DNA of 57,068 nucleotides, taken from the NCBI GenBank assembly GCA_943704415.1, contig CALSCO010000440.1, positions 1-57,068 of the forward strand. Direction: 5' to 3'. The translations under genes and the position numbers were made by a program. The notes beneath the pieces are model-generated. The model saw nothing but the letters and a program-made list of their open reading frames with translations, did not search any database and had not been told where the DNA came from. This stretch comes from Parvularia atlantis (lineage: Eukaryota > Opisthokonta > Rotosphaerida). The first letter of the stretch is position 1; the number at the start of each line of letters is the position of its first letter. Below are positions 466 through 37,497 of this stretch, piece after piece.

Positions 466-2400
466 ATGACCTTCGTGACGGCCTTCGCGGTGCGATGTGC
501 TCCACGGGCTGCGCCCCCCTTGACGCATCGCCTCCAGGTCCTGTCTGCCGTCTGCGCCGTGCTCAGCTGGGCGCTCATCGATCGCGGCGCGGCCGCGGCG
601 CCCGGTGCCGCCAGCGCGGGCTTCTCCGCGTTCCAGTCGCGGTACCTGACCGTGTTCCTGGTTATGAACGGTGCGCGCGCGCTCGCGGCTGCGCCCGATG
701 TGAGCGCTGAGGGCGCGTCGCGCAGCCGGCGACTGGCTGCAGGGCCCGTACGTCTACGCACTGTACCAGAGCTACGGCTACGACACGGACGCGATCGCGC
801 TGCTCTTCGTCGTCGGGTTCCTCTCGAGCGCCATCTTCGGCACGGTAATCGGCGCCGTGGCCGACACGATGTGCGCGCGGCCCGCGTGCGCACGGGGGGG
901 CCGCGGCGTGACCGCACGTGCGCGCCACCAGGGGCAGGAAACGCCTCGCGGTGCTGTACGCGGTGCTGTACGGCGTCTCGTGCGTGACAAAGCTTTCGCC
1001 CGTCTTCGCCGTGCTCCTGTTTGGGCGCGTCGTGGCGGGCGTGGCGACGTCGCTGCTCTTCTCAGTCTTCGAGTCGTGGATGGTCTGCGAGCACAATCGC
1101 CTGGGCAAGCGCACCCGACACGCACCCAGCGTGCGCCATCCTGACCGACGGCGCCGCCCGCAGGCTTCCCGGCCGACCTCGTCTCGCAGACGTTCTCGTG
1201 GGCGACGTGGGGCAACGGGCTCGTCGCAATCCTGTCGGGCGTGGCGGCCAACGTCGTCGTGGACGCGTTCGGTGCGCCGGGCCTCGAGCCGCGCGACATC
1301 GCAGCCGCCCAACCGCGTGCCGTGCAGGGTTGGTTGCGCCGTTCGGGCTGGCGCTGCTGTTCTTCGTCGCCGGCGCGGTCATGGTCACGTTGACGTGGTC
1401 CGAGAACTTTGGACAAGAGAAGGTGCGCGCGTGTGCGCTCGCTCTTGCAGCGTTGAGTTGAAAAAAAAGTTCGCCGCGTGCAGAGCAGCCAGTGGCTTGC
1501 GTCGCTGTACACGGGCGTGGCGGCGTGCCGCCAGGGTGCGGCCGTGCTGCGGCGTGCCGGGCCGCATGTGGACTAACGCAGACCGTGCCGCGCAGACTTC
1601 AAGATCCTCTCGCTCGGGGCGATCCAGTCGCTCTTCGAGAGCGCCATGTACTGCTTCGTCTTTGTTTGGACGCCGACGCTGCAGCGCGGCATGAGTGCGC
1701 GACGACGGCGCGGCGTGCAGGGCGCGTGTGCTTACGCGCGCATCGCAGGCGAGGCCGAGGCCCTGGCGCTGCCGTTCGGGTACATCTTTGCGGCGTTCAT
1801 GGTCTCGGTCATGATCGGGTCGCTGCTCTTTGGCGGGATGGTGGGGCGACGCGTGACGGCTGAGGTGCGCGCCCTTTGCCGCCCCCCTCGCTGGCCGCCC
1901 ACGACAGCGGCGTCGCCCAGAGCATCGCACGCTGGGTGTACTTCCTGGCCGCGGCGGCGCTGGTCGTGCCCGTGATCACGACCGACCCGCTCCTCGTCTT
2001 TGGCTCGTTTGTGCTCTTCGAAGTGTGCTGCGGGATGCACTTCCCGCTCATTGGCACGCTGCGCTCGGTGTGTGCGCGCGCACACTTGCTGGCTGGGCGC
2101 TCAATCGGGCCGCGCGCAGAAATACATCCCCGAGGACTCACGCTCGGCCGTGCTCAACCTCGTGCGCGTGCCGCTCAACCTGATCGTTGTCGTCGTGCTG
2201 CTCAAGGTGCGCCTGTTCGCAAGCCTGTGCGATGTGCCGTGCCCCGACGCTATGCCCGCTCGCGCGGCCAGGTCGGCAGCATGCAGCTCGCCTCGGTCTA
2301 CCTCATCTGTTCGTGCCTCCTCGCGGCCGCGGGTTACTTCGCCTACAACCTCCCCGTGGCGGCGGTGTACATCTCCGCCGCGGGCGACCTGCCGCAGTAG
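466..2400 (+). CDS. MFSD5: MFSD5-like molybdate-anion transporter (major facilitator)
   Basis: Multi-pass membrane transporter of the MFSD5/MOT2 family, known for molybdate uptake. The family hallmark NAGDWLQGPYVYALYQSYGY appears once the first intron is removed, followed by GRKRLAVLYAVLYG, SVFESWMVCEHN and the second-half signature LFESAMYCFVFVWTPTLQ. Ten short introns join in frame: 671-725, a second ending before GGCAGGAAACG, 1105-1163, 1272-1327, 1423-1483, 1536-1595, 1695-1748, 1865-1920, 2068-2119 and 2207-2271. Nine have GT donors. The third (1105-1163) needs a GC donor, GCAAGC, to keep the conserved reading frame. The ATG at 466 opens a hydrophobic first helix. The gene ends TAG 2398-2400, converging on PABPN1 with 71 bp between stops. 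Confidence 0.9.
1105..1163 (+). other. GC-AG intron in the MFSD5-like gene
   Basis: The exon ending CTGG joins the exon GCTTCCCG only if the intron starts with GCAAGC and ends CCGCAG; this gives Leu-Gly-Phe-Pro-Ala-Asp, as the transporter family expects. GCAAG is the classic exception donor used by U2-type GC-AG introns. A CCTGACC branch site lies about 20 bases before the acceptor. No GT in the interval restores the frame. Confidence 0.7.
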
Positions 2401-2471
2401 CAGCGCTCTGCGCTCTTGTTTTTGTTCTCTTGCTGCGCCCCCAGGCACACTGCTCGCTCACCGCGCGTCGC

Positions 2472-3512
2472 TCAGTAGTACGGGTGGTAGAATGCCGCGC
2501 GCCGCGACCTGCGCACAAGACAAAGTCAGCCAAACTGCCCAAAGGTCATGCGCACGGCGTGCGGCGCCGCACCGGAACCGCGGCGCGCCGCGGCCGCGGT
2601 AGACCGGCGGGTAGTACATCGCCGCGGCCATCGCGGCCGCACGGGCGCGGTAGCCGCGCGGCACGCGGTTGGTTGCGCTCATGCCGGGGAGATTGGTCCG
2701 CTTGGCTGAGACCTTGATCGCGCGGTTGTGGACCGTCGTGCCGTCGAGCTCGACCGCGTTGGCGACCGAGTCGGCGCTCGCAAACTCGATGTAGGCAAAG
2801 CTGTTGCGCGGGCGGACAGTGAGCGCACACAACAGGCGCCGCCCCGCCGCCCCGCACCCCTTGGGCTGCTGCGTGAACTTGTCGCACAGAATCGTCACCC
2901 GGTTGATCGTGCCGCAGTCCTTGAAGTGCGTCTGCAGCTCCTCGGGTGTGCACGCGTAGTCGACCTGTCGCGCGGATCAGCTCGTCCCGCGCCGCGTACG
3001 GGCGTGACCGCACGTTGCCGACGTAGATGGACCGTCCGTCGACGTCGTCCTTGCTCTCTGCTACGGAGCGCGGCCGCGCGCTCAGGCCGCCGTCGCCGCG
3101 CGCGCGCGGGGCCACGCGGCGCTCACCGCCACCCGACGCGGTCGACGACGGCGTCCCGATCGCCTCCTCAGCGTGCTTGTTCATCTCCTGCATCCGCGTC
3201 GCCTCCTCCTCCAGCTCCTTCACCTTGCGGCGCATCGTCTCGAGGTCCTGCGAGGCGCGCGCGCCCGCCCGCGGCCCACGTCAGCACGCCCCTTGCCGCG
3301 GCCCGCCCGGGCGGCGCGACGGGGCTACGGGGCTGACGCGCACCAGCTCGCCCTCCTCCTCCGCCGGCGCCGCGCCGGCCGCGCTGTCACCCTCGCCACC
3401 GTTCGTGTCCGTGGCCGCGCTCGCCGCCGCCGCCTTGTTGTGCTCCTGCGGCGCACGCGCGCGCTCGTCGGCCGCGTCGCAAGAGGGGACGGCGACGTAC
3501 CGCGTCGGCCAT
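2472..3512 (-). CDS. PABPN1: nuclear poly(A)-binding protein, PABPN1/Pab2 type
   Basis: Binds nuclear poly(A) tails and controls their length; in fission yeast Pab2 also feeds RNA to the exosome. The protein starts MADA at 3512, then a 55-base intron (GTACGT donor, 3446-3500), an acidic Ala/Glu-rich stretch, a second intron (3248-3343), a coiled coil (MRRKVKELEEEATRMQEMNK) and one RRM. The RRM has RNP2-like SIYVGNV and RNP1-like FAYIEFA and is itself split by two introns. The tail is Arg/Gly/Tyr-rich and, after the last intron, ends AAFYHPYY, like the WYSPY-type end of the family. Its start codon lies 30 bp from the divergent DIS3L2 start. Confidence 0.92.
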
Positions 3513-3542
3513 GCTGACAAGCGCCTGTCTGCCCCGCTGTGA
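3513..3542. promoter_or_regulatory. 30-bp divergent intergenic spacer, PABPN1/DIS3L2
   Basis: Only 30 bases separate the two opposing start codons. No TATA or CCAAT element is visible. Promoter elements and any 5' leader must overlap the neighbouring coding sequence or early introns. Confidence 0.5.
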
Positions 3543-6500
3543 ATGTTCGCGCCAAGCGACGTCGAGCTCGGCCAGGCGCTGCGCGGCGCTCAGCTCGCGG
3601 ACCCGTTCGTGCAGCCGGACGCGCTGGCCGGTGCGTGCCGCGGGACGCAGGCAGGCAGGCCGTCTGCTACCGCGCGCTCACGCTCTCGCGAGCAGCGCGC
3701 GTCGCCGCCGCCCACCCGACCTGGCACGTTGCACCCGAGCGCGTCGCGGCGCTGGTCGCGCGCGTCGGCCTGCGCACTGTGCAGCGAGCGGACGCAAGCG
3801 GGGGGCAGCGCGGTGCCGTGTGCACCGGGCCGCGTGACGCCGACGCTGACGGCTGGCTGGGGGGCCACGCGCAGGCACGCGCGCTGCCCCGCCTGCCGTT
3901 CGCATGACAGCGCCCGCGCCAGTCGCGTCTCTGCCGTTGCCCGCGGTGCCCGCGCCCGTACCCGCTCCTGCCATTGCGCCGGTACCGGCACTGATCGCGG
4001 CACTGGCGCCCGCCAACGCGCCGTTCGTGTGGCCGCCGCGAGAGGCGCCGCTCGTCGCGACGCTGCGGACGATGCGCCAAGCCCTGCCCAACGCGACGCC
4101 GCAGGGGTTGTGCATGATGGTGCGCGTGCACCCGGGCTGTGCGTGCGATCGCTGACGCGCGCCTCGCCCAATCAGCTGCGCGCCCTGTCCGACAGCGGCT
4201 GGGAAGCGCTGAACGTCGAGCTCGTCGCGACGATCATGCATCGCCTTAGCCAGGGTGCGCACTCACTCGCCACAGCGACATGGGCTCACGTGTGCGCCGC
4301 AGAGCCGCCGCCAGCACGGCCGCAAGTGCTGCCGCTGCCACAACTGCCGCTGCCACAGCTGCCGCTCGCAACAAGCGTGCCGCTGCCCGCCGCGCCGGCC
4401 AGCAAGGCGCAGACGAAGAGTGCCGGACGTGAGGACGCCAAGCGCTTCTTCCTACAGCTGTCCAACCTGACGACGATGACTGCTGACGAGGCGCAAGGCA
4501 CGGCCGCACGCGCGCTGCCTCCGTCGCACACGTGTTGACGACCACTACAGCCGCGCTCGTGGCCGCGCACCCCGACTGGCGCATCGCGCACGCCGAGTTG
4601 GGCCGCGCCTTCCGCGCAGCGCAGCAGTCGGCCAACGACAAGGTGTGCCTGCACTGGGCACGGCTCAGGCCGCTCACGCTCTCCGTCGCAGCTGAAGCAT
4701 CTGGCGCACGTGCAACCGCAAGCACCGCCGCTTCCGCCGCCGCTGCCGGCGCAGGTGCTCCCGCTCCCGCCCCTGCTGCTGCCGACGCAGACGCCCGTGC
4801 TCGTCAACCCTGCCGCAGCGGTGGTGCCCAGCGGCAAGATCGTCATGGCCATCCCGCTCGACGCCCCGCTAGGCAGTGCCGCCCGCACGCCGGCCAAGAG
4901 CTCGCCCGCGAAGCCGCACGCCGCTGCCTCGCCGCAGCCCAACGGCGCACACTCGCCCCAGCACCGCACGCCCTACGCGCCGTACATCTCGCGCGACGAG
5001 GCCGTCAAACTCGTGCTACAGGGCCAGGCCATCGTCGGCATGGTCGTCGTGCGCGACCAGGACTCGGTGCGGCGCATGGTCGGCACGCAGCGTGCACTCA
5101 CAGCCGGGCCGCAGGCCGAGGTGACGCGCAGCGACTCCGAGACGCGCGACTTTCTCCAGCCGTACCACGAGCGCCCGGAGCTGCCGACCAAGGTCCGTCA
5201 GCGCCCGCAAAAGACGCGCGCACCCTGCTGACCGCTCGGCCTCAGCCGCCGCGCGCGCTCGAGCTCAACAACCAGCACGCGCGCAACCGCGTCCTGTCGG
5301 GCGACGTGGCGGTCGTGCGCATCAACAGCAGCGTGCGTGCGTGCCCACTGCAGCGCCGACGATGCACTGAGCTGCGCGCCGTCAGATGCCGACGCGCGGC
5401 ACGGTCGTGCACATTGCGCGGCGCTCGACGGTCGCTGCCGTCGTGGCCGGCTACATCCTGCCGCCGTCCCACGCGCACGAAGCACACGTGCGCGGCCTTG
5501 CACCGCCTCCTTGCCCGCCGGTGTTCACACCGCAGCACAGACGCGGCTGAATGAGCACTGGCGCCTGTTCCGGCCGAACGAGCTGTCGTTCCCGTGCGTG
5601 CGTGTCCCGATCCCGGAGGCACGTGCTGGCAGGACATGCTCGCGCCGAGCGTGCTGACGCGTGTCGCTCAGGTGCCCACGGCGCTCACGACGGTCTGCCA
5701 CGTCGACTTCAACGCGATCGACTGGCCCGAGACCGAGCGCTACCCGTCCGGCCACCTCTACCGCGTTGGTGGCAGCGTCGCGGGCGCATCGCACGGCACC
5801 GCGCCCGCCGTCACGTCGTCGCCGCCACCAAACGCGCGCACTGCCGCCACCACGCCGTCGCCGGGCCAGCGAGAGCAGACGTGCGCGCGCCCTGGATCGC
5901 GTGGCCTCGTGTCTGACCCCATTGGCCGCAGGCGCAACGCGCTCGTGTACTCGCCCGACGGGTCCGCCGAGCCGCACGCCGCCGGGACGCCTTCACGCAC
6001 GCCGACGCGCGCCACCAAGCCTGCCTACGAGCCGCATCTGCCGGCCGAGCAGCTCACGCCCGAGGCCATCAGCGCGGCCGGGCTTGTCACGGGCAAATTG
6101 CGTATCAACGCGCGCAACAGCCAGCAGGCGTTTTGTCAGGTATGGGCGTGCGTGCGCCCCAGACGCAATTGCCTTACGCCGGCGCGCCGTGCATGCAGGT
6201 GGACGGGCGCGCCGACGACGTCTTTATCGACGGCATCTGGGCACGCAATCGGGCGTTTGACGGCGACACGGTCGTGTTCAAGGTGCTGCCGCGTGGGCGC
6301 GCGCTGCTTGTATCTGACAGCGTGTGCAGATCGTGCAGACGAGCGAGCAGCGCCAGCGCGGTGCCGAGATCGCCCGGCGCCAGATTGCCGAGCGCAAGGC
6401 GCGCAACGCGGCGGCGAAGGAGGCCAAGGCCAAGGCCAAGGCAGGCAAGGCGCCGGCGCTCGTGGACGCCCCAGGCGCGCCGCTGCCGGCCGATCCGCCG

Positions 6501-9500
6501 AGCGCAGGCGTGGCTGGTAGTGTCGACGACGACGAGGCGTGGGAGGGTGCGCGCGCGTGAGGGAGCTGACCGCCTCTTTGGCCCGTCTGACGTACCGTGC
6601 TCAGACGTCGACTCGGACGAGGGCAGCACCAGCGCCAGTGACGACGAGCCCGAGGCCGTGGCGATGCTCGTGGAGGACGCCAAGGCTGCCGACGCCGAGG
6701 AGCTTCTGGCGTGCGCGCGCCCAGCAGCACTCTGGCCGCTTGCACGTGCTCACGGCGGTGCAGGCCGCAGCGCGCGTTCCAGGCCAAGGGCGTCGTCGTC
6801 GCCGTCCTGACCGAGCACAAGAACGTGCTGCTGGCCGGCCAGCTGATGGTGGACGAGAAGCGCGGCGCGGAGGCCGACGCGTCGGGCAAGCAGCCCACCC
6901 CGCGCAAGGCAACCACGGGCAGCGTGCGCCTCTTCAAGCCGAAGAACACGCGCTTCCCGGCGATCGTGCTGCGCGAGACGCCTGACATTGTGCCGTGAGC
7001 GCGCCAACAGCAGCGCGTGCTGACCAAAGGGCGGCCGCGCACAGCCGCTGGAAGCGCTCGAGCGCAAGCTGCTGCTGGTGCAGCTCGACACGGTCTGGCC
7101 CGAGACGTCGCAATACCCCCTTGGGCACGTGGTGCGCGAGCTCGGCGCGGTCGGCGACGTCGAGGCCGAGACGACCGGCATCCTCCTCGAGCACGAGGTG
7201 CCGCGCACGTGCGCTCGCGTTCACGCAGCAGTGCTCACGCAGGGCGCGCGCCAGGTGGACTTTGACGAGTTCAGCCCCGAGGTGATCGCGTGCCTGCCGC
7301 CGACGCCCTGGAGCACGACACCGGTGCGCGTGCGGCGTGAAAGGCGGCGCCGTGCGCTAATCTCACGTCTGGTTCAGGAGGAGGTCGCGCGACGCCGCGA
7401 CGTGCGCGACAAGCGCGTGTTCAGCATCGACCCGCCGACGGCGCGCGACCTCGACGACGCCCTGCACATCGAGCAGTGCGTGCACGCGTGCGCAGCACGG
7501 CCGCGCCGACACGTGCCGTGTGCCTCAGCCTGCCGGACGGCAAATGGGAGGTGGGCGTGCACATCGCGGACGTGAGCTACTTTGTGCCCGAGGGCAGCGC
7601 GCTCGACCAGCAGGTGACTGTCCTGTCGCATGCGCGGGCTGCGCTGGTCTGACCCGTGTGCAGGCGCGCATGCGTGCGACGACGGTGTACATGGTGCAGC
7701 GCGCGATCCCCATGCTGCCGCGCCTGCTGTGCGAGGTGCGGCGGATGGACGCCGTGCGTGCTCGGCGCAGTCACGCTCACGGACCGCGCGCGCGCGGCAG
7801 CAACTGTGCTCGCTCAACCCGGACGTGGACCGCTACGCCTTCTCGGCTGTGTTTGTGCTCGACGACGATGGCGAGATCCACGCGCGCTGGTTTGGCCGGA
7901 CGATCATGCGCTCGTGCGCGCGGCTCACGTACGACCACGCGCAACACATCATCGTCGGTGCGCACGGCGACACTGGCGCGCGTTGGCCGTCTGACGGCGG
8001 TGTGCGTGTACCCAAACGCCAGGCAACGACGTCGACGGGTGGGACGCGCAGGTGCCCGGCAACGCGACCAAGCAGCAAGTGGCCGACGACATCCTCGCGC
8101 TCCATCGGTGCGGACCGTGCGCCGGTGTGATGGCGGCCCTGGCTGACCTGCAGCGCGCTTGTGAAGCCTCGCCGTCAAGATGCGCGCGCGCCGGTTCGAA
8201 AAGGGCGTGCTCGCGCTCAACAAGGCCAAGCTGTCGTTCCGGCTGGGTGCGCGCAGCGTGTCGCGCAAGTGCCCGCTGCTGAGCACGTGGCCGGCGGCAG
8301 ACGCGCGCGGCATACCCGAGACGTGCTCCGTGTACGAGCTCAAGGAGAGCAACAAGCTCGTGGAGGAGTTCATGCTGCTGGCGAACATGGCCGTGGCCGA
8401 GCGCATCCACCAGAGGTGCGCCGCGCGCCCGCTCACACGCCGCGGGTCTCAGCACCCGCTGCACGCGCCGCTCCAGCCACCCGAACGACTCGCTCCTGCG
8501 GCGCCACCCGCCGCCCGACCCGAACGGCATCCGCAACCTCGTCAACAAGGCCAAGCTGGCCGGCGTGACGCTGGACCCGTCGTCGTCCCGGACCCTGCAG
8601 GTGCCTGCCCGCTCGCCCGCCCGCACTCTTTGCGCCCCTCTGACCGCGTCCGCCAGGTGTCGCTTAACAGCATCGCCGACGCAAACAAGCGCCTGGTGCT
8701 GCAGCTGCTCGCGACGATCCCGATGCGCCCCGCGGCCTACTTCTGCACGGCCAACTCTGGTGCGCGGCCTGGCGCAGGGGCATGTGACCGCTAACGTCGG
8801 CGGTGCGCAGAGGTCGACTACTTCTGGCACTACGCGCTGAGCGTGCCGTACTGTGCGTACTCGCCTTTCGCGACCTGCGCGTCGAACATGACATGCTGTC
8901 GGCGCGCAGACACGCACTTCACGAGCCCCATCCGGCGCTACGCGGACGTCATCGTGCACCGGCTGCTGCTCTCGGCGCTCGCGACCGGTGCGCGCGCGCG
9001 CGGTTTATCCTGCGCAGAACGCGTGCTGACGTCGAGCAGACGCCAACGACGCCGCCCAGCCGTACCGCTTCACGCTCAGCCCGCTCGACGTGGAGGAAAT
9101 TGCGCAGGTGCGTCCCACCGTGACTCGTGTGGACCTCGGCGCATGCGCTGACGCGGGGCCGCGGCAGAACTGCAACCACAAGAAGAACATGTCGAAGAAG
9201 GCGCAGGAGGCGTCGTCGGACCTGTTCCTGTGCATCTACGTCAACCGGTGCGAGCGCAGCAAACACAGTCTGCGCGGACGCGCTGACATTGGCGTGCGCG
9301 CCAGGGCCGGCGGCGTTACCGAGATGGCGACGATCGTTGACCTGCGTGAGAGGGACGTGCGCCTGATCGTGCCCAAGTATGCGCTCGAGGTCGTTGTGCC
9401 GCTGCTGGACGTCGCACGGCGCGCCAAGGTGCCCACGCGCTTGCACGTCGATCGAGCGCGGGCTGACGCGAGCGCTGTGGACGTCCCGCAGACGTCCGAC

Positions 9501-26188: not shown

Positions 26189-27219
26189 TCAGTACAACCC
26201 CCACACGGGCACGCTCGGCAGCAAGAGGTGCACGGCCAACTGCACCAGCAGCTTCGCGGCCCAGCCCGCGAGCACGGCGAGGAACGCCCTCTGGTGCGAT
26301 GTGTTGAGGAACACTGCACGGCGCGGCGGCGGGTGAGACACAGCCCACGCGACGCGTCCGTGTGTGCGCGCGCACCGGACAGTGCCTGCGTGTTGGACGA
26401 GGCGACAAAGACGTTGATGATCCACAGGTACGTCAGGTCGTGGTAGTCCCAGATGAGCATCGGGATGAGGATGCTCTTGGCGAAGCTCGAGATGAGGACG
26501 GCCATCGTCGCGTAGTTGTACTTGACGATGGCGTACTTGGACCCGACCTGGCACCGGATCGCCAGCAGCACGCCCGCGTGGAACGCCAACGTCTCTGTCG
26601 CGCCGGTCAACTGCGCGCACACGCCGGCCCGCCACGCCGCACCGAGCGCGAGTGACGTGACGACCGACGCCGCGCGCGTCCCAAACTCGACGCCGTGCGC
26701 CTCCCAGTCGAGCTGCGCGAGCGTCTGGCCGATGTTGCTGAACGTCCCGCCGTACAGGTCGGCGTAGAGCAGCAGCCAGCGGAACGCTGCGGCGCGGGTG
26801 CGTGGGCCAGCGACGTCGTCCGCGCGCACGAGGCACACCCGCGTCAAACACCATCCAGAGCAGCGCGAGGCCTGCGACGGTCAACTGCGTCGCGATGCGC
26901 GCGGTGAGCGGCGATCGGGCGCTAGCGTGCGCGCGTACATTGCAGCCGCGGTCGAGGTAGTCGATGCGGTTGAAGAGCAGGTGGCGGTACACCTGCGGCT
27001 TGTGCAGGACCATGTCGATGAAGATCACGACAAACTCGTACTCAACGTAGCGGTCGGCGAACTGGCCGCATCGGTACTGCCGCGGGCCGCGCGTGGGCAC
27101 ACCACCACAGACGACGATGATGACGCAGCACGCACACACTGCGTCAGGCGGATGTTGCCCTTGCTGAACTCGCGGTACAGGTCCGAGACGGGCGCGCCGC
27201 ACTCGACGCACGTGGGCAT
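26189..27219 (-). CDS. ARV1: ARV1 ER lipid-homeostasis protein
   Basis: ER membrane protein of the ARV1 family, involved in sterol distribution and GPI-anchor supply. The N-terminus is the ARV1 homology domain: a zinc-binding CVECGAPV motif, a GNIRLTQC run that joins across an intron to YRCGQFADRYVEYE, then FIDMVLHKPQVYRHLLFNR. Several hydrophobic helices follow (VAGLALLWMV, YATMAVLISSFAKSILIPML, LTYLWIINVFVASSNTQAL). It ends VPVWGLY and TGA 26189-26191. The start ATG is at 27219. Confidence 0.92.
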
Positions 27220-27274
27220 CGCGTCGGCAGTGCGGCGCGAGTCAGCGTGGCGGCCACTTTAGTGACGCTCGGGG
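27220..27274. promoter_or_regulatory. 55-bp divergent intergenic spacer, ARV1/HSBP1
   Basis: The longest of the seven divergent gaps. No TATA, CCAAT or heat-shock element is visible. Confidence 0.45.
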
Positions 27275-28844: not shown

Positions 28845-30722
28845 TCACAGGCTCAGCCGCACAAAGTTGCTCTGCCGCGCGCGCGCCTCGGCCGATGCAG
28901 CGAGCCGCGCAAGGGCCGTGCAGTTGGTAGCAAACTGCTCCAGATCGGCAGCGGACGGCTCAACGTCCCATGGCGACGTCCCGTCAGCCCATGCGCGCGC
29001 GAGCGACTCTGCCACCGTGCCGGCCTCGACCGCCGCGTCTAGCGCGCCCGGCAGAGCGTCGTCTAGCAGCGCAATCGTGTTGCGCTGGCGCGAGGTGAGC
29101 AGACGCGCGTTGCGCGCCAGCCGCAGCTGCGCGCGCCGCTGAAAGGCCGCTGCCAGTGTGCCCTCGAAGCACCGCACGGCCGTCACAAGCTGCGGCAGCG
29201 CTCGCCACCCGGCTGCGCCAAGCGAAGCAAAGGCGACGCGCGCCGGCAGCGGCTGCAGCGCCGGCCACAGGCTGAGCTCGACTGCACTCCCTGCCGGTGG
29301 CGTGCGGACGTGAGGCGCGACGTACGGCAAGCTGCGCAACGCACCGGCGGCTGCAAGCGCTGCGCCGATGAGCGGTGCGTTGCGGCGCAGCAGCAGCGGC
29401 GCGCGACACCGTCTCGTGAGCAATAGCGCCACAGCCGTGCCTGTGGCGCGCTCGCCGCGCACGTCGTCGCAGTCGAGCATGCGCGCTGCGAGCGCATCCA
29501 CGGCCTCGGCCAGCTCGCACAGCGGGTGAAACAGGACGTGCCGCTGCGGGTCGTTTGCGCTGCCAAACGCCGCGAGGCCCACGATCGCGCTGGCGAGCCG
29601 ACACGCCACAGCCGCCGCCGCGGGCTCACCCTGCGCCAGCATCGCAGCCAGATCCCACTGCCCGTGCGAGAGACGATCGCGCAGGCGCGGCCCGTGCTCG
29701 TGCTGGAACATGTCGAGCAGCTCGCCCATGACGTCCGCGCCAAGCACGCGCGCCATCGACCGCCGTGCGCGGCGCGCGCCACCGCCACCGCTGCCGCCGT
29801 CGTCGTCCTCCCACAGGCACATGTCCATCGTCACGAAGAACGCGCGGTCGCTCGCGGCGATGGCCCGCTCGGGCATGCCGTGCGCGGCCGCGAACGTGCG
29901 ACGGAGGCAGTGCTCGAGGCACGGCACGGCGAGCACGAAGAAGGCCGGCCACGCGCGCTTGCCAAACGCCCGCGCCGCCGCATCCCACCGACGCTCGCGG
30001 CCGGGAGCGATGACAGCCGCCGACGCGCGCAGCCGCTCGATCAGGTTGCCGGCCGCGTCGACATGCGGATGGCGCAGCACGACGAGGCGGCGCGGCGACG
30101 CGACGACGGTGCAGCGCTCGCGCACGAGCACGAGCAGGGCCCAGGCGAGCGAGACGTAGCACGGCGGGAGCTCGTCGTCGGCGAAGAAGCCGTGCCAGGC
30201 GAGGTTGCGCAAGTTAAGGCCGTCGGGCGGGCCCATGAACGTCTCGAGCGCGTCCAGTAGCGCCTCGCCCAGCGCATCGGCGGCGCGCAGCACGGGCGCG
30301 TGCAGCAGGTCGCGCAGCAGGAACGGCACGGCGGTGCCGGGCGGGCCGCGCGCCACGAGCTCGTCGCCGAGCGCGCGCTCAATCGCGGCCGTGGCGACGC
30401 AGAGGCAGCCGACGTCGTCCAGCAGGTCCAGGCGCGCGGCACGCACGCACTGCGCGTGCGTCGTGCTGAGCACAGGGGCGCCCGGCACGCGTCGATGGCG
30501 CCGCACCTCGCCCTGCGCGCGCGGCATCACGGCCAGCGCCCGATCCGCCGCACGCCGCACGTCGCCCGCTGCCCACTGCCGGTGGCACAGGACGGCGGCG
30601 GCGCGGACGGCGGTGCAGCGGGCCGCCCAGCCGGCATCGGCGGGCGCGCGCAGCAGCAGCACGGCGGGCCACGGCGCGTCGTGGACGTCGGGCGGGACGC
30701 CGTCGACGACGCGCTCGCGCAC
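28845..30722 (-). CDS. ERMARD: ERMARD-like protein (DUF4209 domain)
   Basis: About 625 residues in one uninterrupted exon, rare in this window. The DUF4209 core is recognisable: PFLLRDLLHAPVLRAADAL, then FMGPPDGLNLRNLAWHGFF, as in ERMARD, a protein linked to ER-associated RNA decay in animals. The rest is an Ala/Leu-rich helical fold. The frame has no ATG at its upstream end; it opens with GTG at 30722 and runs up to a stop about 60 bases further on. A first exon starting at an upstream ATG (for example ATGGGGCACGG with a GTAAGA donor near 30800) is possible, but I cannot fix it. The stop is at 28845-28847. Confidence 0.65.
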   Translation of the reverse strand: MRERVVDGVPPDVHDAPWPAVLLLRAPADAGWAARCTAVRAAAVLCHRQWAAGDVRRAADRALAVMPRAQGEVRRHRRVPGAPVLSTTHAQCVRAARLDLLDDVGCLCVATAAIERALGDELVARGPPGTAVPFLLRDLLHAPVLRAADALGEALLDALETFMGPPDGLNLRNLAWHGFFADDELPPCYVSLAWALLVLVRERCTVVASPRRLVVLRHPHVDAAGNLIERLRASAAVIAPGRERRWDAAARAFGKRAWPAFFVLAVPCLEHCLRRTFAAAHGMPERAIAASDRAFFVTMDMCLWEDDDGGSGGGGARRARRSMARVLGADVMGELLDMFQHEHGPRLRDRLSHGQWDLAAMLAQGEPAAAAVACRLASAIVGLAAFGSANDPQRHVLFHPLCELAEAVDALAARMLDCDDVRGERATGTAVALLLTRRCRAPLLLRRNAPLIGAALAAAGALRSLPYVAPHVRTPPAGSAVELSLWPALQPLPARVAFASLGAAGWRALPQLVTAVRCFEGTLAAAFQRRAQLRLARNARLLTSRQRNTIALLDDALPGALDAAVEAGTVAESLARAWADGTSPWDVEPSAADLEQFATNCTALARLAASAEARARQSNFVRLSL

Positions 30723-30858
30723 ATCCGGAGCGAGCGCCGTGTCCGCCGTTGGTGATCGAGATTATTGGCGACAACGAGTCCCTCTTCTTACCCCGTGCCC
30801 CATGCCCACCTCTCAGAAGAAAGAACGAACGATAGGCACCCTCCCCAGGGCCACCCGC

Positions 30859-33800
30859 TCACGCCTCGAGCAGCGGCTTGCGGATGGTGAGCGAGCGCAG
30901 CACCGGCGAGCTGATCATCTGCGCAAACTCGACGTCGGTCTTGTTGCGCACGCTCTCGCCGTTGACCGCGACGATGAGCTCGCCCGCGCGCAGACCCACC
31001 TGGCGAACCATGAGCCGCACACGAGCAGCGGCGACCGCTTGCAACGCACCCGTGCGCCGTAGCCGTCCGGGGCGACGTCGCTGATGCGGAACGCCGAGCG
31101 GCTCTTGAGCGGCGAGATGGTCAACTGGAAGCCCGTGTCCGGGCGGTGCACGTTGACGATGCGCTCGTTCTGCTCCTCGTCGAGCTCCTCCGTGGTCTGG
31201 CGAGGCGCGCCGTGAGCGACGACGCCAAGACGCACACACGGGGGCGCAGACGCACGTCGCGCTGCTGCTGCTGCTGCGACGACGGCCCGGCCATCGACAC
31301 GACGCGCTCGCGCTGGCCCGCTGTGCGTGCGCAGTGCGTGTGAGCGTCACAGCAGCTGCAGGCGGGAAAAACGCACTGCTCGAGTTGCCCGCGCTTGACG
31401 TGAGCATTTCGGCGCCGGCAAAGGAGGCGCGCGAGGCGCGGTTGGACGTCGTGGCCGAGCTGCTGGTCTGCGTCGTCATAGCGCGGCCGCGCATGCTGCT
31501 GCTGTCAAAGGTCGCCGACGAGGCGGGCGAGGCGGCCACGGGCGAGGGCACAAAGACGTCACCATCGCCAAAGTTGGAGTGGGCGGGGCTGGCGACGACG
31601 GGCGAGCCAAAGGTCATGTTGGTGCCGGACGAGGACGAGCGCGAGAGCGTGGAGATAAGCGAGAGGCGCTTGTTGGGGGCGGGCGCGGCCGAGCCGCCGC
31701 CGAGCGTGCCCGAGCCGGTGCTGGCGGCGGCGCTGCCGATGATGCCGCCGACCGAGCGGCGGATGGTGAGTGAGCGCACGTCACCCTGTGAGAGCGTGTC
31801 CATGACCATCCAAAGGCGCCAGCGGTCGACCGGCTGGTCGTTGATGCATAGGAGCTGGTCAAATACGCGCAGGCCGAGCGTCTGCGCGTACGAGCGCTCC
31901 TCCACGCGCTCGATGCGGAAGCGGCCGAGCAGGCCGTCGCCGATGAGCAGGCCCGGGCGCACGGCGAGCGACATGCCAAAGCCCGTGGGCGGGCGCTGGA
32001 CCTGGACGAGGCGATCGGTGCCGTTGTTGTCGCAGAGGCGGCGCACGGTGACGCAGCCCGGCTGCGTCAAGAGCATGTCTGACACGTCGGTCGGGGTCAG
32101 GGTCGAGATGAGCTGGCCGTTGACGGCCACAACCAGGTCGTCCTCGGTCAGGCCGAGCTTGTAGGCTAGCGTGCCTTTCTTGGCCGACATGAATTTGAGG
32201 CCGTACTTGCGCCGGCTGTCGCGCAGGGTCGTATTGGTCACCTCGCCAAAGTCGGCGCCGACGGGCACGATGAGCTCCTCGAGTGAGATTGAGGCCAGGC
32301 TCGTGCCGGCCTCCTTGGTGGCCTCCCTGGTCACGCGCTCGTGCGCCTGGTGCACGTGCTTGGCCAGGGGCGAGCGCAGGCGGCGCTGGAGCAGGGCCAG
32401 CTGCGCCCGCTTGAGGAAGTAGAGCGCGTAGATGTACACCTTGCGGCGCTCGTACTGCAGGCCGAGCTCGTACATGGCGCCGATCGTGTCGACGTGGGTC
32501 TCGCCAAGCGACATGCGGAAGCCGTAGACGGCCTCCTCGAGCGTGTCGAGCGCCTGCTGGCCCTGGCCCATCGCCTGCTGGTGCAGGCCCAGCGTGAGGT
32601 AGGCGTGCGCCGTCTCGGGGTGGACGAGGCCGTACGTCTGCGCGAGCACGTCGACCAGGTTCTTGCGCAGGGGCGCGGCCGCGGCGCTGCTCTTGGCGAG
32701 CGAGTAGGCCTGCATCAGGCTGCGCAGCGCGGCCGCGGTGGACGGGTGGAACTCGTTGACCGACGCGCGGACCTCGCGCGACTGCGCCAGCAGGGTGAAG
32801 ATCGTGTCCTTGGGGCCAACGACGATGCGCGACTTGCGCGCGACCTGCAGGTCCTCGAGCGCCGTCTGGAGCAGCGCCTCGGCCAGCAGCGCGCGCTGGT
32901 AGTTGGTGGCACGCGAGGGGTCGTTGGGCAGGACCTTGAGCGCCTGGTCGGGCTTTCTGCGGCAGAGCTCGCCCCAGGCGATGACGGCCTTGGCGAGCGA
33001 CTCGTCGTCCGCGTGCGGCGCCGCGCCCCGGCCCCACGCCACCACGCGCTCGCCAAACAAGCGCAGCTCGTCCGCCGTCATGCGCACGCTCAGCAGGCCC
33101 TCGATTTCAATCAGCGCGTCGAGCAGGAACGGCAGGGACGGCACTTCGATCTGCAGGCGCGCAAACATGCGCGAAGCGTGCGGCCACGCGTTGTTGAACA
33201 TGGCGTCGGCCGCGGTCGGGTGGGTCGACACGCGCAGCAGGCTCGCCGTCTTGACACGCACAAGCAGCAGCCGCTGCAGGCGCTGGTAGCCCTGACGCAG
33301 GTCGGACTGGAGCGACTGGATGCCCTGCAGTTGCTCGGCCAGGCCCGCGGTAATACGCCACGTGCGCTTGCCTGGCGCGACGCATTCGACCATGTGCGCC
33401 TCTTGCAGCAGGCGCAGCATGTGCCGCGCGGCCACGCTTGGCGTCTTGGCGCCGATCTGGTGGCTGCCGATCGCTGCGAGCACCGCGTCCGTGTCCAGGT
33501 CGCCGTCGCGCATGCCCACGACCAGCCGCGCACACGCGCGCGCCATGTCGCGCCACAGTGCCAGCGACTCGCCGCTCAGGCGCGGCAGGGCGTTGCGCAC
33601 GGCCTTGCCCGTGCGCGCCAGCACCGCCGCGGGCACGCCACCCGCGCTCGCCGTCTGCATGAACGACTCGTCGTCGGCGTTGGCCGCGGGGCTAGTGGCC
33701 CGCGCGAGCTCCTCGGCGCTGGCGCGCTCGAGCACGCGCACCTCGACGCCCTGCGCCTTGGCCGGCCACGGCACAAACTTGTCGGCCGGGCCGGGCATGC

Positions 33801-36800
33801 TCGACCAGGGGTTGCGCGACGTGACGATGACCCAGATCAGCGACGGTGGCGTGCCGAGCAGGACCGGGAGCCAGTCGAGCGCCGAGTTGGGGTCGCTCGC
33901 GTAGGGCTCGTCCAGGCCGTCGATCCAGAGCAGAATCGGGGCCACGATCGAGTTGGCCCACATGGCCAGGGTCTCGAGCGTCGGCTGGACGTAGTTGGGC
34001 ACGAGCCGGTGCATGATCATCCGCGCCACGCTTGCGTGCGACAGGCTGCGCGCGTTGATGTAGTGGAACGTCGTGAAGCTGCTCTTGTCCGCACTGTGCT
34101 GCGCCAGGGCCGCGGCCAGCGCCGACTTGCCCACACCGGGCGGGCCCGAGAGCCAGAGCAGCTTGACGTCGCCTGTAGGCGATTGCGCGCGCGTGCGTGA
34201 GCTTCTTGCGCCTAGCGTGGCACACCACGCGCGCGGCGCACCCGTCGTGATCGCCTTGTGCAGCGTTTGCACCTGCTCCGCGCGGCCGACAAAGTTGATC
34301 GGCACGGGCTGGATGCTGCGGATCGTGCGCAGCGTGAGCTCCTTCAGGAGCATCCTGGCGGGGGCCGGCCGCGTCAGTTGGTCAGCGCAGCCCAGCGCGC
34401 TGGGCGCTGAGAACGCACTCGGGCGGGCCGTCGAGCGCGGCCGACGAGACCAGATCCAGCTGGCCCACGGTCACAAAGGCGCCGTCGTTCGACAGGCGGT
34501 CGCGCAGGAGCGACAGGGCCGTCGGATCGGTCGAGACGGCACTGCGTGCGAGCGCATCAGCCGGCGCATTGCGCGTGTGCACGTGTGCAGCACGCACCCG
34601 GGCGGCAGGCTCACGGTGACCGCGTGCATGAAGACTTCAAACGGCACGCGCTCGACGTCGGGGAAGAGCCGGTACCAGAGCGCGCGCCAGTATATGTGGC
34701 GGATGACGCTGTGCGGGCCGGCGACGGCGTCGGCCACCTGGCTCTCGCGCATCATGCGAAGCTCGCTGTTGTGCGCGTCAGCACAGCACAGTATGCGCAC
34801 AACGACGCGCACCGCGACGACGTCGCCAGCTCGCGCTTGAGCTCCGACATGTCCACGCTCAGGCGCTCCGCCAGACGCACGACCTGCTCTTCGGCGATCA
34901 TCGCGAGGATCTCGAAGCGCTCGACGTCGTCCGCGATGAAGCTGACAGGTGGGAGCTGCCGCACAGAGTATGAGCGACGCGTGCGCGGCTTGTGTGTGCG
35001 CGCCGATCCGCACCTTGGGCTCCAGACCCATCTCCTGGCCGAGCTTGATGAGGCCCGCGTCGTACACCTGCAGCCTGTGGCGTGCGTGTGAGCGTGCACG
35101 AGGCACAGGCGGTGCGGGACGGCGTACCGCTCCGTGTCAATGGCCGCGAAGGGCACGCGCGAGAGGAAGCCCGGGCGCGAGAACTGGAGGACGAGGTCGG
35201 CGACCTTGCCGACAAGGATGAGCAGGTTCTGCCCGGCGTAAGCGTCAGCAGCCGTGGGGCGACAGCGCGCGCGCGGCACGTGCCTGCACGTGCTTGGGCG
35301 CAAGCGACGCCTGGCTGTCACTTGGCAGCATGCTCGTGGCCTCGCACAGGTCGACCGCGCGGCCGGCGACGTACAGGCTGTTGCGCTTCATGATGCGCGC
35401 CTGCACTGCGTTCTCGCACAGGCGCTGGGCCGCCGAGAGGATCTCGGCAAACGTCTGCGGTGGGGTCCGTCATGAGCCCGCTGAGCGGCGCGCCACCGCA
35501 GCGAGGGGCGCACCGGGTTGGCAAAGCCGCTCGCGCGCATCTGCTGGATCGAGTTCAGCAGCACCGTCGGGTGCTGCGGCGTGGGCAGGCCTCCGCCGAT
35601 GAGATCGACCAGCTGCGCGAGGTCCTCCGCCTCGCGCTGGCTGAAACGCGCGGCGCCCCACTCCTCGTCCTCGGCCTGCGCCCCACGGTCAGCGACGCTG
35701 TCGGCACGTGGGTAGAGCCGCGATGCGCACGGCGTGCACGGCCGTCTTCATCGAGCGCATCTCGTTCATGAACGCCTCGACCGACATGGTGTCGAGCGGC
35801 TGTGCGGCGGCGGCGCGACGCGTCAGCACGCGGCATGGCGCGAACCCCAAGCTGCCCCGCCTCGCACGTTCTGCGGCGGTTCGCTCGAGAGCTGCGTCAG
35901 CGTTGTCTGGCGCTCGAGGTTGCGCAGCCAGTCGTTGTCGACGGCCGAGCCGCTGAGCGCAACCGACATGGTGTTTGTGCGCGACTTGGGCTGGACGTAG
36001 AGCTGGCGCGCGGCGGCCGACGAGGCGTCCTCCTGCGCCATGGCCGTGGCCGCGCCACGGCCCTCCTCGGCGCGCGAGCTGCCTGGGTTCATTGTGGCGC
36101 TGCGCTGCTTGACAAAGTCGTCGGCGCGGGCCTCGCGGTTGGGCGAGCGTGTGTTGCCGTTGATCACCGCCGATGGGGCCGTGAGCGGCGGCGGAAGGGT
36201 GGCCGAGAGCGAGGCACTCGGGGTGGTGCGGGTGTTGCGCACGGTGGCCGAGACGATGACGCGCTCATCGGGGTTGCCAAAGCCGCTCGGGCGCAGCACG
36301 ACGTGCGACGCCGTGCCGCTCTTGGCCGTGCCGCTCGTGCCAGTCTTGCCGTAGACCCAGGTCGAGTCGTCCTCGCCCTGGTTGGGCGACCACGCGCGGC
36401 CGGACCCACTCATGTTGGTGCTGTCGACCGCCTCGACCGGCGACGGCGGGTCGTAGTCGTCCATGGCAAGCGGCTGAGCAATGCTGCGATTCCGCGCGGC
36501 GGCAGCAGCGGACGAGCGACCGGCAAAGGTGGCGCTGCGCGACCAGCCGATGGCTAGCGTCTGATCGGCGTCGTTCGCGGCCGGCTTGGTGAGGGTCTTG
36601 ACACTGTTGCCGCTGCTGCTGCGGCTGCTGGCCGTGAGCGGCGGCGGCGGGCTCGGGCCCGCGCCCGCGCCCGGGTTCATCATGCGCTGGAGGTCGGCGC
36701 CCGAGACGGGCACTGGCTTGATGACGCGCGCGGCGGCGCCGGGCAGCGTTCCGGTCGCGGAGCCGACGGGCGGCGGCATGACGATCGGCGGCGGCGCGCC

Positions 36801-37497
36801 AAAAGTCATCGTCTGCCGGCGACGCTGCGTCTCGGAGCTCTCGGCGTTGAGCGAGAGCGGCGCGGGCGGGGGCGGCGTGAAGATGCTCTGCGGGCGGCCG
36901 ACATCGGCCGCGGGCTTGACCAGCGGCGGCGGCAGGCGCGAATGGCTCGGCACGGAAGGCGGCAGCTCGGGCTGGTGCGCGGGCTCGGGCGCGGGCGCGG
37001 TCTTCTCGCCGCGCATCGGCGGCGGCGCGACGGCTACGGCCTCGATGTCGATGTCGATGTCGACGCCGAGCTCGGCGTCAAAGTTGTCAAACGCGGTGTC
37101 GTCGAACGACGCGCGCTCGGGCTGCGGCTCGGCCGCGGCCTCCGCGTCGCCGTCCTCGGCATCGCCGTGCGGGTACTCGAGCACCATGCGCTGCACATTC
37201 CCGGGCGTCAATGAGCCGGCGCGCGCTCGCGTGAGGTATGCAACGCACCAGCTGCGCAATCTCCTCGATCAGGCGCTTGCGCTCGTCCATCTTGAGCCCC
37301 ATCATCGCAAAGTCCTGCTCGTTGTACGTGTCGTCGAGCAGGTCGTGGATGGTCGTGATGGACTGCGTCGGGGCCGTGAGCCGCCCGAGCCCGCCCGCAC
37401 GTGCGGAACGTGCTGGGCAGACCTCATTACGGAACGTCCCGAGGTACTGGCCCAGCTCAAGCCCTTCGAGGAACGCGGCGAGGTCGATCGCGTCCAT
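30859..37497 (-). CDS. SAM-NACHT/STAND-TPR-PDZ multidomain protein (NLR-like)
   Basis: A large protein of roughly 1900 residues from about 15 phase-consistent introns. Order: a SAM domain (start 37497; FLEGLELGQYLGTFRNE, TIHDLLDDTYNEQDFAMMGL); about 450 residues of Pro/Ser/Ala-rich disorder; a helical adaptor (about 35830-34390; IYWRALWYRLFPDVERVPFE); a STAND NTPase with P-loop SGPPGVGKSALA (about 34120-34155), Walker B LLWIDGLDE (about 33905-33935) and sensor-like VIVTSRN; kinesin-light-chain-like TPRs (HPETAHAYLTLG, GETHVDTIGAMYELG); and three PDZ domains (about 32260-32040, 32020-31740, 31160-30862). NACHT is preferred to NB-ARC because of GLDE. Such proteins usually switch from a closed ADP form to an ATP oligomer, with SAM as signal or polymer module and TPR/PDZ as sensor or anchor; here that is inference. 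Ligand unknown. Confidence 0.85.

Follow-up and report, generated by a model that had tools for sequence, protein, structure and literature searches.

What would a protein do that carries a nucleotide-dependent switch between a SAM domain at one end and three PDZ domains at the other? The question is raised by a gene on the minus strand of contig C113 (CALSCO010000440.1) in the genome assembly of the nucleariid Parvularia atlantis (GCA_943704415.1). The window, that is, the whole stretch of DNA analysed, comprises 57,068 bases of this contig with 70.3% G+C, and relatives of the gene were sought in an assembly of 16.25 Mb in 616 contigs. On our best reading of the sequence, the predicted protein of 1923 amino acids is ordered as SAM domain, disordered linker, MLKL-type four-helix bundle, connector, NACHT and winged helix, TPRs and three PDZ domains. 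We tentatively propose, with a probability of roughly 0.4, that this protein serves a nucleariid amoeba as an NLR-like STAND receptor, whose built-in MLKL-type bundle may couple sensing at a membrane to cell death.

One product from the helical region to the PDZ domains

The initial annotation described a single gene with about 15 in-phase introns, and both points held. The splice model (start ATG at 37497, stop codon at 30861-30859) was trained on the long open frame at 34470-30859 and was built before any homologue was known. Its first version had 16 introns and 1898 amino acids. One of these introns (36558-36484; in-frame, 75 bases, GC donor) was unsupported and was dropped by judgement. 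With residues 475-1475 of the first version as query, a EukProt protein of 1618 amino acids (P0001; Unigene1737_Nuclearia_a) was found, which is 100% identical over its full length to residues 306-1923 of the target. Its name looks like one given to a contig in a transcriptome of Nuclearia, a genus assigned by NCBI taxonomy to Rotosphaerida, Opisthokonta. P0001 bears out 13 of the 15 introns; introns 1 (37422-37363) and 2 (37248-37191), which flank the SAM exons, lie outside it, as does the dropped intron. Because P0001 spans residues 306-1923, the helical region, the NACHT NTPase, the TPRs and the three PDZ domains all belong to a single product, at least from residue 306 onward. Among the introns verified in this way is a GC-AG intron at 35283-35229 (CAG/GCACGT, the slash marking the splice site), while donors of this gene are mostly GTGCG.

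The profile search suggested in the initial annotation bore out the NACHT-type NTPase, the TPRs and the three PDZ domains. A Pfam scan of the whole protein, run on the 1898-residue first model, listed 25 families. Over their cut-offs were PDZ_6 (83.9 bits in three stretches; cut-off 27), NPHP3_N (43.5; 24.8), NACHT (PF05729; 35.9; 26.7) and AAA_16 (35.7; 32.6), and the motifs GPPGVGKS and LLWIDGLDE are present. Two families passed their cut-offs on segments: SAM_1, to which we return below, and TPR_12 (33.4 bits; cut-off 30.1), which scored 24.9 bits, below cut-off, on the whole protein. NCBIfam gave weak partial matches, the best being FxSxx_TPR (52.2 bits; cut-off 300). AlphaFold modelled the NTPase region poorly (predicted local distance difference test, pLDDT, 51.8), with no Foldseek match at E<=0.001. 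By its predicted central NACHT domain with Walker A and B motifs, C-terminal repeats and N-terminal effector or adaptor domain, the protein would fall within the NLR/STAND class. Nephrocystin-3 was rejected as an identity: NPHP3_N passed its cut-off, but TPR_NPHP3 reached 9.7 bits against a cut-off of 100.

The probable four-helix bundle and its relatives in the genome

What the initial annotation called a helical adaptor is a helical region, but this description was incomplete. Through the paralogue C496, the bundle of the target is very likely homologous to MLKL_N, which provides the strongest functional clue. The C496 bundle matches the Pfam family MLKL_N (PF22215) with 41.8 bits (E 9.7e-11, cut-off 27). 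Comparison of the target with this bundle gave a Smith-Waterman z of 10.3, with none of 2000 shuffles as good, and rank 1 of 10,001 in phmmer (E 6.6e-4). The adjoining connector is 36% identical to C496:15730-15948 (E 2.9e-7) and has no convincing relative in Pfam or the PDB. In an alignment made from sequence only, an intron in phase 0 at column 89 and one in phase 2 at column 123 are common to the target, C496 and C110, the positions in C496 and C110 being predictions from the model trained on the target. An intron at column 386 (phase 1) is shared by the target and C110, that of C496 being displaced by two columns; introns at column 291 match in position and differ in phase (2 vs 1), and the other introns do not coincide. 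A profile of the three bundles (A3), searched against 177,635 PDB sequences, gave eight matches at E<=10, of which the top six were all MLKL (E 0.010-0.074), the printed alignments to MLKL spanning chain residues about 9-120. The homology of the target bundle to that of C496, which we take as likely, implies that it would adopt the MLKL fold. The bundle of C110 showed a weak MLKL_N match (13.7 bits, E 0.047); the N-terminus of this locus lies close to the end of its contig and could be truncated.

Several results weigh against this assignment. The helical segment of the target, scanned alone, matched no Pfam family and no PDB entry at E<=10. When the C496 bundle alone was searched against the PDB, two designed repeat proteins came first (E 6.5e-7 and 0.0033) and MLKL took ranks three to seven (E 0.75-0.97). 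With a profile of C496 and C110 searched against 2003 sequences, the target ranked second (E 0.37), one shuffled sequence scoring better. As good as the real pair were 7 of 2000 shuffles for C110 and C496 and 12 of 2000 for C496 and C134, a locus described below; the corresponding comparisons with the target were not significant (327/2000 for C110, 1352/2000 for C134). Single-sequence AlphaFold of the bundle was poor (pLDDT 43). A genome scan with PF22215 listed neither C113 nor C496, because the exons are short. Two other identities were considered. MLKL proper, with a pseudokinase after the bundle, was rejected, no kinase family being among the 25 Pfam families listed. For the N-terminal module of Cbl (four-helix bundle and EF-hand), no Cbl was among the eight matches of the PDB profile search; a genome scan with PF02761 (Cbl_N2-like EF-hand) had no match anywhere, controls included.

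At least nine loci in the genome share NACHT and/or winged-helix-TPR parts (C113, C496, C110, C316, C255, C414, C456, C24 and C105). Besides C113, the target protein as query found C496, C110, C316 and C255 (TPR part), and the C496 protein further found C414, C456, C24, C255 and C105. NTPase parts were found in C113, C496, C110 and C316 only; the other loci were read as winged-helix/TPR from models, with Pfam on some. Two PDZ genome scans, one with 12 and the other with 11 matches at E<=0.1, hit C113 three times and gave nothing in the eight other contigs, although intron-cut exons could escape such scans.

The model of C496 has 1282 amino acids (start MGAQGSKTKRSK) and comprises a SAM region, linker, bundle, connector, P-loop (GQGGVGKT), winged helix and TPRs (TPR_10, eight stretches), soon after which it ends. 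The initial annotation had asked for the same domain order and for expanded TPR copies in related genomes. Within the same genome, the model of C496 repeats the order SAM-bundle-NTPase-TPR, without PDZ domains, and it is in C496 that expanded copies occur. Its TPR exon at 3589-4439 consists of 126-base DNA repeats (6.8 copies, 71% matches), as in repeat-expanding receptors. The DNA of the target itself contains two short two-copy repeats and no TPR array. The start of C496 (from 17481 downwards), MGAQGSKTKRSKGDKG, looks like an N-myristoylation site with a basic run, a hint that members of the family may differ in how they would reach membranes.

Three further loci deserve description. In the gene model of C134 (about 3127-6584, plus strand), a bundle resembling MLKL_N scored 20.3 bits against a cut-off of 27 and a ZZ-like zinc finger 20.2 against 21.4; a kinase-like part, which has HGQLSPHNIF at the expected HRD position, reached 20.9 against 23.1 (PF07714). 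With all three parts below cut-off, C134 is a candidate MLKL-like pseudokinase. C414 (about 3799-5936, plus strand) was predicted to encode a hydrophobic helix, a SAM domain, a winged-helix-like part and TPRs. No NTPase was matched between these parts, and the locus is a possible partner of the target family. C316 (reverse complement, 1405-5441) yielded an NTPase-TPR model in which NPHP3_N is over cut-off (26.4 bits) and the first approximately 450 residues have no Pfam match.

Receptor, scaffold or two products

If the protein is a receptor, it may work as follows. At rest, the NACHT module, closed on nucleotide, would keep the bundle inactive. TPRs and PDZ domains would bind a partner, for the PDZ domains most simply the C-terminal tail of a membrane protein, and so place the receptor at the membrane. 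Partner binding would open the switch and the NACHT domains would oligomerise, while SAM domains could steady or enlarge the assembly. The MLKL-type bundles brought together in this way would then act on the membrane, by analogy with the 4HB, HeLo and CC-RPW8 bundles of other NLRs. According to passages of three papers, membranes are attacked by bundles of the MLKL, HeLo and CC-RPW8 kinds, which certain NLRs contain or regulate (PMC12881547, PMC10197012, PMC9815663).

The weak point of a killing function is the position of the bundle. HeLo and CC-RPW8 depend on an extreme N-terminal helix, as stated in a passage of PMC12881547, whereas the bundle of the target is internal. It starts at about residue 580 of 1923, after the SAM domain and a linker of 440 residues, or at about 275 if the protein begins at residue 306, so that the target bundle has no free first helix at the extreme N-terminus. 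For Goodbye-like bundles with N-terminal extensions, PMC9815663, in the part cited, leaves killing open. Since killing is putative and the bundle internal, a scaffold role is only somewhat less probable than that of a receptor. The protein would then be a TANC-like signalling scaffold, in which the STAND module regulates assembly, the TPR, PDZ and SAM domains gather partners at the membrane, and the bundle is an adaptor or brake. Three PDZ domains and a SAM domain are typical scaffold parts, and the target has them. The target bundle is also the only one of the three compared that lacks any MLKL_N match, and the absence of a tandem TPR array from its DNA likewise suits a scaffold. TANC proteins are STAND scaffolds with TPRs and a C-terminal PDZ-binding motif (passages of PMC5533708), but no ankyrin family is among the 25 Pfam families listed for the target. 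The kinship with MLKL_N through the paralogue, the intact NACHT motifs and the NLR-like sister loci fit a receptor at least equally well.

The second alternative concerns the N-terminus. The SAM domain and the upstream disordered part could belong to a separate transcript or isoform, with the main protein starting at about residue 306 (MDDYD). P0001 begins at this methionine (position 36464, inside the linker), leaving the SAM exons and 241 disordered residues outside it; the intron dropped from the first model, with its weak GC donor, lay just upstream. A protein search with the N-terminal 301 amino acids found no matching protein or transcript among 5891 candidates, which weighs against a single product. 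The SAM domain itself stands as sequence: SAM_1 scored 24.3 bits on the N-terminal 90 amino acids (cut-off 23) and 18.9 on the whole protein, and the families listed for the N-terminus were SAM_TNK, SAM_1, SAM_EPH, SAM_2 and SAM_CEP-1_C. A further adverse result is that a SAM_1 genome scan, exon by exon, gave 29 matches at E<=0.1 and none in C113, C496 or C414, where each SAM is split by an intron.

Against a separate transcript stand coding scores and gene structure. Codon scores, trained on the P0001 part only, came out positive for the first two exons and the upstream part of exon 3, without a stop in 305 codons, and negative in all three sense frames of the 5' intergenic DNA. Exon 3 (37190-35868) is one open frame running through the P0001 start, with coding-like codon use before residue 306: 0.264 per codon and no stop in 242 codons, while the other two sense frames have 5 and 2 stops. 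In the model of C496 the corresponding bundle is likewise preceded by a SAM region, and an intron interrupts the SAM region at the same place, in phase 0, in the target (FRNE/SITT), C496 (FLAE/AQDM; acceptor ambiguous by six bases between two models) and C414 (FEAE/GLTV). SAM_1 was below cut-off in these paralogues (20.6 bits in C414, 14.1 in C496), and in C496 SDE2_2C scored higher (15.7 bits, below its own cut-off), so that the assignment in C496 leans on position and intron. On the coding scores, the frame of exon 3 and the shared arrangement in C496, the linkage of the SAM domain to the rest of the protein appears well supported, and two products are improbable. The RNA check proposed in the initial annotation thus divides: residues 306-1923 are in one EukProt protein, and none was found for the SAM part, whose place at the N-terminus is a matter of inference.

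A SAMD9-like antiviral effector on RNA or translation, with an incidental resemblance to MLKL, is very improbable: the SAM-STAND-TPR order is the same (passages of PMC5445408) and Foldseek, run on a poor AlphaFold model, lists SAMD9 fifth (E 0.69), but no AlbA, SIR2-like or OB-fold family is in the Pfam lists for the target, its P-loop has GKS where that of SAMD9 has GGT/S, and the bundle of the paralogue C496 matches MLKL_N.

The features of the gene are collected in Table 1. Two other open frames on the minus strand of the window encode recognisable domains. The next downstream of the gene (28845-30761, 638 amino acids) has a DUF4209 domain (66.4 bits; cut-off 22.3), and one at 26189-27241 an Arv1-like domain (66.4 bits; cut-off 20).

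Table 1 Predicted features of the target gene, in window coordinates.
Feature	Position	Strand	Residues	Basis or remark
Whole gene	30859..37497	minus	1923 amino acids	16 exons, 15 introns; splice model and P0001
Exons, part 1	37497-37423, 37362-37249, 37190-35868, 35799-35731, 35675-35514, 35454-35284, 35228-35128, 35074-35014	minus		
Exons, part 2	34955-34813, 34765-34598, 34541-34419, 34354-34242, 34172-31377, 31320-31256, 31196-31050, 30999-30859	minus		
SAM domain	37188..37485	minus	5-64	SAM_1; split by intron 37422-37363, ends at intron 37248-37191
Ala/Pro/Ser-rich linker, presumably disordered	35868..37187	minus	65-504	Single exon save first codon
Probable MLKL-type four-helix bundle, diverged	35014..35519	minus	580-692	Homology to C496 bundle
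Helical connector between bundle and NTPase, unnamed	34354..34955	minus	693-837	Common to C496 and C110
NACHT/STAND NTPase	33697..34161	minus	879-1033	PF05729, 35.9 bits
Walker A	34146-34123	minus		GPPGVGKS
Walker B with DGLDE	33933-33907	minus		LLWIDGLDE
VTSR motif	33831-33811	minus		
Winged-helix/helical region	32935..33579	minus	1073-1287	Alignable with family members including C496; fold name by analogy
TPR region, best stretch	32404..32616	minus	1394-1464	TPR_12
PDZ domain 1	32035..32268	minus	1510-1587	PDZ_6; genome scan match 32187-32056
PDZ domain 2	31750..32010	minus	1596-1682	PDZ_6; genome scan matches 31914-31819, 32007-31789
PDZ domain 3	30874..31163	minus	1840-1919	PDZ_6 and PDZ; spans last intron; genome scan match 31002-30898

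Wider meaning and relation to known systems

Nucleariids are the sister group of Fungi according to the title of PMC2789072. If the receptor reading is right, NLR-type receptors with an MLKL-class bundle in a unicellular relative of Fungi would provide an outgroup for the age of the MLKL/HeLo-NLR link. They would also offer a natural case of an MLKL-type bundle that is not N-terminal, against which the need for a free first helix could be judged, and the PDZ tail would suggest that the receptor recognises its ligand or its location by way of C-terminal peptides. Cell death of the nucleariid on microbial challenge would become directly testable. A bolder and rather unlikely extension is that nucleariids possess all-in-one necroptosis-type receptors as a family. 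Polymerisation through SAM would there take the place of amyloid or death-fold nucleation, and in the target, docking at a membrane through PDZ domains would stand in for the free N-terminal killer helix. With the candidate MLKL-like pseudokinase in the same genome as the receptor family, the coupling of MLKL-type bundles to NLRs would then predate Fungi.

The novelty claimed for the layout in the initial annotation stands in part. The full combination of SAM domain, MLKL-type bundle, NACHT, TPRs and PDZ domains in one protein was not found described among the open-access papers listed by our searches, nor was a report of NLRs in Nuclearia. To our knowledge, plant CC-RPW8 NLRs have NB-ARC and LRR rather than NACHT and TPR, with the bundle at the extreme N-terminus and neither SAM nor PDZ domains. 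As is proposed for the target, they combine a membrane-active four-helix bundle with a STAND switch (passages of PMC12881547). A SAM domain before STAND and TPR is known from vertebrate SAMD9/SAMD9L (passages of PMC5445408), which differ from the target in the domains and P-loop given above; those passages name no PDZ domain or MLKL-type bundle, both of which the target appears to have. Nor is a SAM N-terminus new: passages of PMC9815663 describe fungal NLRs with a SAM_Ste50p N-terminus and fungal NLRs with an MLKL-type one, although SAM_Ste50p is not among the families listed for the N-terminus of the target. TANC1/TANC2, by the passages of PMC5533708, likewise join a STAND NTPase to TPRs and are tied to PDZ proteins; they carry ankyrin repeats and a PDZ-binding tail where the target has PDZ domains, and no SAM domain or MLKL bundle is described there. 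A further likeness is to the BaMLKL NLRs of basidiomycetes and the all-in-one HeLo/HELL NLRs of fungi, which also place a four-helix bundle of the MLKL kind N-terminal to a NACHT/NB-ARC switch and, as fungal NLRs do, carry TPR or other repeats (passages of PMC9815663 and PMC12881547). The word "pdz" is absent from the main text of PMC9815663. In these NLRs the bundle is the N-terminal domain, with one extra helix in BaMLKL, whereas in the target it would follow a SAM domain and about 440 linker residues, with PDZ domains at the C-terminus.

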